The position numbers and the translations under genes were made by a program. A stretch of DNA of 64,000 bases from Geodermatophilus marinus (lineage in GTDB: Bacteria; Actinomycetota; Actinomycetes; Mycobacteriales; Geodermatophilaceae): positions 1 through 64,000 of the forward strand of contig NZ_QVQH01000025.1 of assembly GCF_003428645.1 (NCBI RefSeq), written 5' to 3'. This document shows, in pieces, positions 14,454 through 16,703 of the stretch. The notes beneath the pieces were generated by a model, which worked only from the letters and a program-made list of their open reading frames with translations, searched no databases and was not told the origin of the DNA. Position 1 is the first letter of the stretch, and the number at the start of each line of letters is the position of its first letter.

Positions 14454-16703
14454 GTGACCGTCCCCACCCTCGTCACCGGCCTCGACGACGTCCTCGCCGA
14501 CGGCGGCGTGCGCAGCGTCTTCCAGCCCATCGTGGACCTCGACACCGGCGCGGTCGTCGCCTACGAGGCCCTCGCCCGCGGACCGGAGGGGCCGCTCGAG
14601 CGACCCGACGCGCTCTTCGCCGCCGCCCGCGCCGCCGGCCGGCTCGCCGAGCTGGACACCGCCTGCCGCACCGCCGCCCTGCGCGGCGCCGTGGCGTCCG
14701 GCCTGCGGGCCCCGCTGACGCTGTTCGTCAACGTCGAGCCGGAGGTGCTCGACCGGGCGCCCCTGGAGGACCTGCTGGCGCTGGCCACCGCGGCGCCCGG
14801 TGGCCTGCGCGTCGTCCTGGAGATCACCGAGCGGGCCCTCGCCGCCCGCCCGGCCGAGCTGCTGCGCACCGTCGAGCGGGTCCGCGCCGTGGGCTGGGGG
14901 GTGGCGGTCGACGACGTCGGCGCCGAGCCCATCTCCCTGGCCTTCATGCCGCTGCTGCGCCCCGACGTCATCAAGCTCGACCTGCGGCTGGTGCAGGAGC
15001 GGCCCGGCCCGGTGGTCGCCGAGATCATGAACGCGGTCAACGCGCACGCCGAGCGCACCGGCGCGGTGGTCCTGGCCGAGGGCATCGAGGACGACGCGCA
15101 CCTGGCCACCGCCCGCGCGCTCGGCGCCACCCTCGGCCAGGGCTGGCTGTTCGGCCGTCCCGGGCCGGGCCCGGTGCCCGGCGCCGTCCACGGCGAGCTC
15201 GTCCTGCCGGCGCAGCCGGCCGACTCCGTCAGCCGGGACGCCGACGTCTCCCCCTTCGCCTGCCTGCCCGACCACGTCCCGCTGCGGACCTCCCGCAAGA
15301 CGCTGCTCATCGAGCTGTCCAAGCAGCTGGAGCGGGAGGCGATGCGGCTCGGCTCGGCGTGCGTGGTGGCCGCGACGTTCCAGGAGGCCCGGCACTTCAC
15401 CCCGTCGACCACCCAGCGCTACCGCGACCTGGTCGAGCGCACCGGGTTCGTCTGCGCGCTCGGCGAGGACCTGCCGGTCGAGCCGCTGCCCGGGCTGCGC
15501 GGGGCCGCCCTCGACCCCGCCGACCCGGTGCGCGGCGAGTGGGACGTCGCGGTGGTGGGCCCGCACTTCGCCGCGGCGCTGCTGGCCCGCGACCTCGGTG
15601 ACGCCGGCCCGGACGCCGAGCGGCGCTTCGCCTACGCGCTGACCTACGACCGGGAGACCGTCGTCCGCGCCGCCGCGGCCCTGCTCGCGCGGGTCGCCCC
15701 GCGGCAGGAGCCGCTGCCCGGGTGCCCGGGGACGCCGGCCCCGGCCCCGGCCGCGGGATCCCGGGCCGGGCAGGGGCTGCCGTCGGCCGTGCTCACCGGG
15801 GGCAGCCTCGTGGAGCGGGCGCTGGCCGCCACGCCCAGCGGGGTCTCGATCGTGGACATGCGGCTGCCCGACCAGCCGCTGGTCTACGTCAACCCGGCCT
15901 TCGAGCAGCTGGCCGGGCTGCCCCGCGAGCAGCTGCTCGGCCGCAACTGCCGGTTCCTGCAGGGCCCGGACACCGACCCCGCCGTGGTCGCCGCCGTCCG
16001 CCGTGCCGTCGACGCCGGCGAGGAGTGCCGGGTGACGATGCTCAACCACCGGGGCCCGGAGCGGGCGCCGTGGTGGAACGAGCTGCACCTGGCGCCGGTG
16101 CCGGGCCCCGACGGCGCGATCGCCCAGTACATCGGCGTCCAGGTCGACGTCACCGCCCGCGTCGAGGCCGAGCGGGCGCTGGAGCAGGAGCGCGACCGCA
16201 CCCGCACGTACCTGGCCCGGATCGAGCAGCTGGCCTGCACCGACCCGCTGACCGGCCTGCCCGACCGCCGCCGGTTGGAGGAGCAGGTCGAGCTGGCGCT
16301 GTGGGACGCCCGGGCGCGCGACGAGGCGCTGGCCCTGCTCTTCGTCGACCTGGTCGGGTTCAAGGGCGTCAACGACCGGCTCGGCCACGCCGCGGGCGAC
16401 GAGCTGCTGGTCACCGTGGCCGACCGGCTGCGGCACCGGCTGCGCCGCGGCGACCTGCTGGCCCGGCTCGGCGGTGACGAGTTCCTCGTGGCGCTGGTCG
16501 GCCTGCCGCAGGAGACCGCGGCGGCCGAGGCCCGGCAGGTGGCCGACGAGCTGGTGGCCGCGGTCGGCGCCCCCGTGCCGCTGGGCGGCGGCGAGGTCCG
16601 GGTCGGCGCGAGCATCGGCGTGGGCGTCTGGCCCGGCGACGGCGCCGACTTCCCGGCCCTGCTGCACGCCGCGAGCATGCGGATGCACGCCTCCCGCCGC
16701 TGA
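14454..16703 (+). CDS. EAL-DICT-LOV-GGDEF putative blue-light-regulated c-di-GMP protein
   Basis: 749-aa signalling protein with four recognisable parts. EAL phosphodiesterase (about 12-240): the EAL signature at 38-40, then NVEP, LEITER, VDDVGA, IKLD, AEGIED and GQGW, so the metal-binding and catalytic residues look complete. A DICT sensory domain lies at about 275-425. A LOV/PAS domain (about 453-570) contains [13 protein letters not shown], placing the flavin-adduct Cys at 499, plus the FMN-contacting NELHLAPV and QYIGVQVDV strands. GGDEF cyclase (about 585-749) has GGDEF at 673-677 and an RxxD I-site (RRGD) exactly five residues earlier. GTG 14454 follows GAGGGG. The order EAL before GGDEF is the reverse of the common one. 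Cytoplasmic; no membrane segments. Confidence 0.9.

Follow-up and report, generated by a model that had tools for sequence, protein, structure and literature searches.

LOV-activated diguanylate cyclases (LadCs) fall into two classes with linkers of 35 or 21 residues, counted from the D of D(I/V)(T/S) to the L of DxLT, according to Vide et al. (PMC10396304). The same study ascribes tight dark inhibition and a light-induced rise beyond 10,000-fold to the long-linker enzymes studied, and a rise of about 15-fold to the short-linker ones. For MsLadC, a follow-up study describes the architecture of the inhibitory site (I-site, RxxD) as crucial to the dark-state inhibitory interface (PMC12805367). 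A second described system, SL2 of Synechococcus elongatus, carries a canonical LOV, a GGDEF and an EAL domain on one chain, and blue light led to hydrolysis of cyclic di-guanosine monophosphate (c-di-GMP) in vitro. The DICT domain was listed among domains without discernible physiological purpose in a 2022 review (PMC8846402). Here, we describe a gene of Geodermatophilus marinus lying in a window of 64,000 nucleotides (positions 1 to 64,000 of contig NZ_QVQH01000025.1, the whole stretch that was analysed), the product of which resembles SL2 in carrying LOV, GGDEF and EAL domains on one chain, and has the order EAL-DICT-LOV-GGDEF. This order differs from that of SL2, which is reportedly LOV-GGDEF-EAL without DICT, a comparison of domain order rather than of aligned sequences.

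The reading frame at 14454–16703 (+) contained no internal stop and encodes a product of 749 amino acids (aa); a GAGGGG stretch lies immediately 5' of its GTG start. All four Pfam domains, in the order EAL, DICT, PAS_9 and GGDEF, scored above their own gathering scores, bearing out the architecture of the original prediction, which had been made from the sequence alone. A chance reading frame was ruled out by syntenic relatives and by ratios of nonsynonymous to synonymous substitution (dN/dS) well below 1 across EAL, DICT and LOV. We consider it reasonably probable that the product is a blue-light-responsive c-di-GMP enzyme in which a flexible tether joins two modules, an EAL-DICT phosphodiesterase core and a long-linker LadC. 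In this reading the EAL half would respond to light too, with the breakdown of c-di-GMP as the conserved output. Both halves are of known kinds; no description of the EAL-DICT-LOV-GGDEF combination, and likewise none of a photosensor that persists through repeated loss of the cyclase, was found by title, abstract start or passages in the literature searched, a scope that leaves most subscription journals outside.

Part of the support for this reading came from a comparison across the family Geodermatophilaceae. A DICT match was present in 88 of 112 family genomes (87 above the cut-off), which together held 123 DICT matches, 111 of them fetched; L002 carries a DICT domain without a matching EAL. 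The residue-level comparison took 111 of 120 DICT matches, 105 from the family and six from outside it, the latter chosen for showing LOV and GGDEF and hence all in the intact class. The nine dropped were four edge-cut copies of genes already included and five with an interrupted EAL frame. A GGDEF site was called altered upon a change at the metal Asp, Lys, Asn, Asp or GG(D/E)EF positions, L091 being a borderline case with Lys to Arg as its sole difference. L080 ends at a contig edge, and its LOV and GGDEF state was counted as unknown.

By class, the 111 proteins comprised 66 EAL-DICT-LOV-GGDEF proteins with an intact GGDEF site, eight more intact ones with a short linker, 15 with LOV and an altered GGDEF, 12 EAL-DICT-LOV proteins without GGDEF, eight LOV-less EAL-DICT proteins with an altered GGDEF, and two EAL-DICT proteins (L068 and the contig-cut L080). 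Counted by GGDEF site, 74 were intact, 23 altered, 13 lacked the domain and the state of one was unknown. The metal and catalytic positions of the EAL domain, which we take to be those of RocR, were all present in the focal protein (12/12) and all 12 were kept in 110 of the 111. This disparity between EAL and GGDEF had been missed by the original prediction. The adduct cysteine and six flavin contacts were all retained in the 27 LOV proteins with an altered (15) or absent (12) GGDEF.

In a carefully built tree of 98 EAL-DICT sequences (omitting eight short-linker rows, six outgroup rows, L062, L123, L140, L068 and L080), the GGDEF state changed eight times (seven if L091 is taken as intact; bootstrap range 7–8), with four changes forced by well-supported branches, and LOV loss needed two changes. 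A quick tree of 117 rows likewise gave eight GGDEF changes and two LOV losses. The GGDEF changes occurred partly at one orthologous locus, and not every one need be a loss, since the intact L058 sits within an altered clade taken as Blastococcus. Median dN/dS values, obtained from simple pairwise counts rather than a likelihood test, were 0.11–0.21 for EAL, 0.09–0.30 for DICT and 0.24–0.86 for GGDEF over nine sets, and 0.18–0.37 for LOV over the eight sets with LOV. The ranking was the same throughout the nine sets, with EAL and DICT lowest, LOV next and GGDEF highest (the LOV value being meaningless in the LOV-less one); for the focal protein and seven near relatives, the medians were 0.18 (EAL), 0.17 (DICT), 0.33 (LOV) and 0.40 (GGDEF). 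This pattern suggests that the phosphodiesterase is probably the constant output and the cyclase an accessory. Since LOV and EAL persist in relatives while GGDEF catalysis has been lost several times, it is very likely that the EAL half, too, responds to light. The original prediction had proposed switching between making and breaking c-di-GMP; both sites are intact, but such switching is just one of the possibilities, since across the family EAL looks like the constrained output and GGDEF like the accessory.

The PAS_9 match spans residues 471–568 (E 2.7e-14) and contains the photoreactive Cys in GxNCRFLQ. Within the 111-protein alignment, Cys499, N498, R500, Q503, N531, N542 and Q563 were unchanged in all 101 LOV-bearing proteins, the focal one included; R516, also present in the focal LOV, was Arg in 96 of the 101. 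The Asn, Arg and Gln positions are presumably contacts to flavin mononucleotide (FMN), as in phototropin. Both the Cys499 motif and the FMN-contact residues had been pointed out beforehand, with loss of the contacts, or a LOV profile score below that of ordinary PAS, named as what would speak against a LOV domain; as far as the sequence tells, the prediction withstands both. Searched alone, the LOV piece matched 155 PDB sequences at E ≤ 0.001, and many of the best 60 were named phototropin, NPH1, aureochrome, LOV or blue-light protein. The remaining names were generic (histidine kinase, sensory box, PAS/PAC sensor); 9vf7 and 6hmj carry LOV titles, and the others we take to be LOV structures as well. 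The modelled domain fitted four chains of the solved LOV 9vf7 to within 0.9–1.5 Å. No NCBIfam LOV model exceeded its cut-off (YtvA family, 113 vs. 250 bits; blue-light histidine kinase, 101 vs. 450 bits); these are whole-protein models of other architectures. An ordinary PAS domain was ruled out by the LOV-type PDB matches together with the kept Cys499 and flavin-contact residues. On this evidence the PAS domain is a LOV domain, for which FMN binding and a 450-nm photocycle are predicted. Elsewhere in the genome, a second clear LOV-like match was found (46% identity). A flavin sensor of redox state or oxygen, to which light would be incidental, has a precedent in the LOV-like PAS of RmcA, proposed to answer phenazine redox (PMC8846402); that domain is described there as lacking the cysteine, whereas the adduct cysteine is kept in 101/101 proteins here, making such a light-independent role highly improbable.

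The LOV-GGDEF half resembles MsLadC (8c05; PMC10396304 and PMC12805367) in its LOV domain, 35-residue helical linker and GGDEF domain with RxxD, and the alignment of the two was gapless across the linker. Unlike MsLadC, the focal protein carries an EAL-DICT core in front, and many of its relatives lost the cyclase site. The linker measured 35 residues in the focal protein and in all 81 LOV-and-GGDEF proteins of the main clade (66 intact, 15 altered), and 21 residues, as in the short class, in 8/8 proteins of a distant paralogue clade (L081, L093, L097, L099, L104, L106, L107 and L111). The linker of these paralogues is exactly two heptads shorter, and their clade may have arisen by a fusion of its own or through a change of two heptads. 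The full-length AlphaFold2 (AF2) model (mean predicted local distance difference test score, pLDDT, 86.4; predicted template modelling score, pTM, 0.58) found the dark-state structure of MsLadC, 8c05, as its best Foldseek match, and an unbroken helix (residues 567–594) joins LOV to GGDEF in it. The LOV-GGDEF half is, by these features, a long-linker LadC module, for which dark-caged light activation would be expected; the protein contains such a module, yet falls outside the published definition of a LadC, as EAL and DICT precede LOV.

The 35-residue LadC linker, the continuous LOV-GGDEF helix as against a low-confidence tether to EAL-DICT, and the occurrence of EAL-DICT alone elsewhere would also suit two enzymes on one chain, with light driving the GGDEF half only, as in LadC, and EAL-DICT working independently under a DICT ligand. 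This arrangement, which appears rather unlikely, leaves unexplained why the flavin-binding equipment is complete in the 27 LOV proteins whose GGDEF is altered or absent.

The residues expected of an active cyclase were present in the focal GGDEF domain (D632, K637, N640, D649 and GGDEF at 673–677), their roles as metal Asp, Lys and guanine-site Asn and Asp being assumed to be those in PleD. The C-terminal helix of GGDEF domains follows the pattern AD..MY..K, from which the focal protein departs by loss of the D and the Y; the Lys position is Arg in it and in seven near relatives. Among the 97 proteins with a GGDEF domain, D was found in 80, Y in 71 and K in 66. The altered helix could lower the activity of the focal GGDEF. 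This helix and the non-canonical EAL loop 6 described below had escaped the original prediction, which correctly described the EAL catalytic residues, the GGDEF motif and RxxD as intact.

The I-site outlasted the cyclase site. R664 and D667 were present in 23/23 altered GGDEFs and in 73 of the 74 intact ones, the exception being L141 (intact GGDEF site without RxxD); K637 was retained in 0/23 altered domains and N640 in 9%, both positions being part of the definition of 'altered'. Pfam still called GGDEF in six of six altered domains tested (L048 at 89.5 bits, L054 at 55.5 bits, L073, L101, L057 and L084). Eight of the 42 columns kept in at least 97% of the 66 intact long-linker GGDEFs were kept in all 23 altered ones, and these eight included both R664 and D667, an outcome expected from a random draw in about 3% of cases, uncorrected for kinship. 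The retention is thus no more than suggestive. That RxxD was kept solely through packing on LOV is a weakened explanation, as all eight LOV-less altered GGDEFs keep it too. Degenerate GGDEF domains that retain RxxD are known as c-di-GMP receptors. The 23 relatives resemble these in their altered active site and kept RxxD, and c-di-GMP binding is predicted for them; the focal protein differs in that its active site looks intact. Tentatively, and as a possibility that we regard with some doubt, the LOV-GGDEF half could be a light-operated latch on the EAL-DICT phosphodiesterase, for which GGDEF catalysis would be optional. A dead GGDEF with its I-site would still be latch and product sensor, the domain would be dispensable in one Modestobacter clade, and blue light, c-di-GMP and a DICT ligand would be integrated into c-di-GMP breakdown.

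Loop 6 of EAL domains, a functional element, canonically reads DFG(T/A)GYSS. In the focal protein and across its aligned group it was of the DDVGAxxxSL type, departing from the canonical DDFGTGYSS. The focal genome held matches to 20 GGDEF, 16 EAL, one PilZ and one DICT domain, and DDFG followed by G-x-S was found in 10 of its 16 EALs, four of the 16 having escaped the pattern. The DICT match (PF10069) scored 44.1 bits against a gathering score of 23.8; a ligand for the DICT domain of this protein is conjectural. EAL-DICT alone, in proteins of about 430 aa, is widespread in Actinomycetota (e.g., at Mycobacterium, Actinoplanes and Nocardioides loci). These two-domain proteins share the loop 6 type of the focal protein and, unlike it, are without LOV or GGDEF. 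Their EAL and DICT domains were 39–58% identical to it in seven aligned; another, L142, was closer (EAL 68%, DICT 75%). A loop 6 of this type throughout the aligned group, and an I-site kept in altered GGDEFs, might also indicate that both catalytic domains are receptors or regulators, the EAL binding c-di-GMP without hydrolysis and signalling by partner contact. Conservation of 12 EAL positions in 110/111 proteins is more than plain binding should need, and we judge this alternative improbable.

In the blue-light-responsive two-module enzyme that we favour, blue light would form an FMN-Cys499 adduct, and the LOV dimer would then free the GGDEF domains, caged in the dark, and shift the 35-residue coiled coil into the active register, as in MsLadC. 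The EAL half would respond to light too, and the conserved output would be c-di-GMP breakdown, a reaction that blue light also elicits in SL2. No route from LOV to EAL is evident in the monomer model; it would have to pass through the dimer. Both activities are probably still present in the focal protein, and the sign of the net light effect is left undecided by sequence.

Several observations weigh against this reading. Residues 424–450 look flexible in the AF2 model, so that a rigid connection between LOV and EAL is not obvious, and the match to 8c05 has a whole-length root mean square deviation of 23 Å, because the domains are placed differently in the focal model. The departure in loop 6 could lower the activity of the focal EAL, leaving its phosphodiesterase activity unsure. 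Light control is not indispensable, since nine EAL-DICT proteins are without LOV (the eight with altered GGDEF, plus L068). Nor is the cyclase useless where it is kept, because purifying selection still acts on the intact GGDEFs (median dN/dS 0.24–0.35 in three sets, 0.40 in the focal set and 0.51 for L092). Finally, the five proteins with an interrupted EAL frame (L027, L076, L088, L108 and L110), which may reflect sequencing error or decay, were excluded before the counts.

EAL-DICT-LOV-GGDEF proteins are common in Geodermatophilaceae and were also found in Kineococcus (L141), Motilibacter (L137), Quadrisphaera (L140) and Cellulomonas (L138). A survey of named relatives took in the best 80 of at least 519. 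The EAL-first order is confirmed and unusual, as had been claimed, but it is not unique: uniqueness was ruled out by the non-actinobacterial L199 and L205, in which GGDEF lies behind EAL in one frame (weak matches, 28% and 34% identity). The focal gene is flanked by a divergent pheS and a convergent SpoU-type RNA methyltransferase gene. Among wide-flank fetches, this locus held 25 of 31 intact-GGDEF proteins with the 35-residue linker, 15/15 with LOV and altered GGDEF and 8/8 LOV-less ones with altered GGDEF, and 0/12 GGDEF-less proteins and 0/8 short-linker paralogues. The four-domain protein is far above chance, because its order occurs with an intact GGDEF site and the 35-residue linker in 60 of the 105 family proteins examined and in those 25 of 31 at the pheS/methyltransferase locus.

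At L101, L044, L032 and L052, two genes lie in tandem: one encodes EAL-DICT-LOV-GGDEF, and the other lacks LOV and combines EAL-DICT with a GGDEF of altered site. The EAL-DICT-LOV proteins without GGDEF are encoded at L085:2392-4239 (-) and 11 similar loci of one genus, taken as Modestobacter; they retain LOV and most of the linker helix, and 10 of the 12 end in SPGARRA, SPGARRV or SPGTRRA. On G000:C18, and in a number of draft-genome relatives, about 15–18 kb separate the DICT match from the contig start, with the same orientation; these assemblies may share a break upstream.

Table 1. Positions in the window of the EAL-DICT-LOV-GGDEF gene, its parts and its neighbours.
Feature	Positions	Strand	Basis
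Whole gene, EAL-DICT-LOV-GGDEF protein, 749 aa, GTG start	14454..16703	+	Translation, Pfam
EAL domain, residues 14-236; 12 checked catalytic/metal-site residues all present	14493..15161	+	Pfam E 4.7e-38, alignment
EAL loop 6, non-canonical	14910..14939	+	Similar in all 28 EAL-DICT sequences aligned
DICT domain, residues 279-380	15288..15593	+	Pfam E 2.4e-11, structure model
Probably flexible tether, EAL-DICT half to LOV-GGDEF half, residues 424-450	15723..15803	+	pLDDT under 50
LOV domain, residues 453-568	15810..16157	+	Pfam PAS_9, PDB sequence search, structure match
Cys499, flavin-adduct cysteine in GRNCRFLQ	15948..15950	+	Kept in 101/101 LOV-bearing proteins
LOV-to-GGDEF helical linker, 35 residues, D565 of DVT to L599 of DPLT	16146..16250	+	Alignment, model
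GGDEF domain, residues 595-747	16236..16694	+	Pfam E 1.1e-36
RxxD inhibitory site, R664 and D667	16443..16454	+	Alignment
GGDEF motif, residues 673-677	16470..16484	+	Alignment
Last GGDEF helix, altered in focal protein	16650..16697	+	Model; compared with AD(M/L)RMYATR in 7 near relatives
pheS (phenylalanyl-tRNA synthetase alpha chain), divergent neighbour, conserved-locus marker; start provisional	13235..14296	-	Pfam tRNA-synt_2d 4.8e-95
SpoU-family RNA methyltransferase, convergent neighbour, second synteny marker	16755..17564	-	Pfam SpoU_methylase 8.6e-36

Elsewhere in the window, a DEAD-box helicase of 1200 aa with DUF3516 is encoded at 37871-41470 (+), and an EPSP-synthase-family enzyme preceded by a helix-turn-helix domain at 55166-57118 (+).

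The family constitutes a ready natural experiment, in which LOV and the 35-residue linker occur at one orthologous locus with either an intact or an altered GGDEF. The paralogous clade without GGDEF completes the comparison, and the EAL site is intact in nearly every case. Such a comparison would show directly whether LOV can govern a phosphodiesterase by way of a cyclase that has lost its enzymatic activity. The family also extends the LadC switch to Actinomycetota, and it offers a setting for tests of DICT, a domain with no known purpose.
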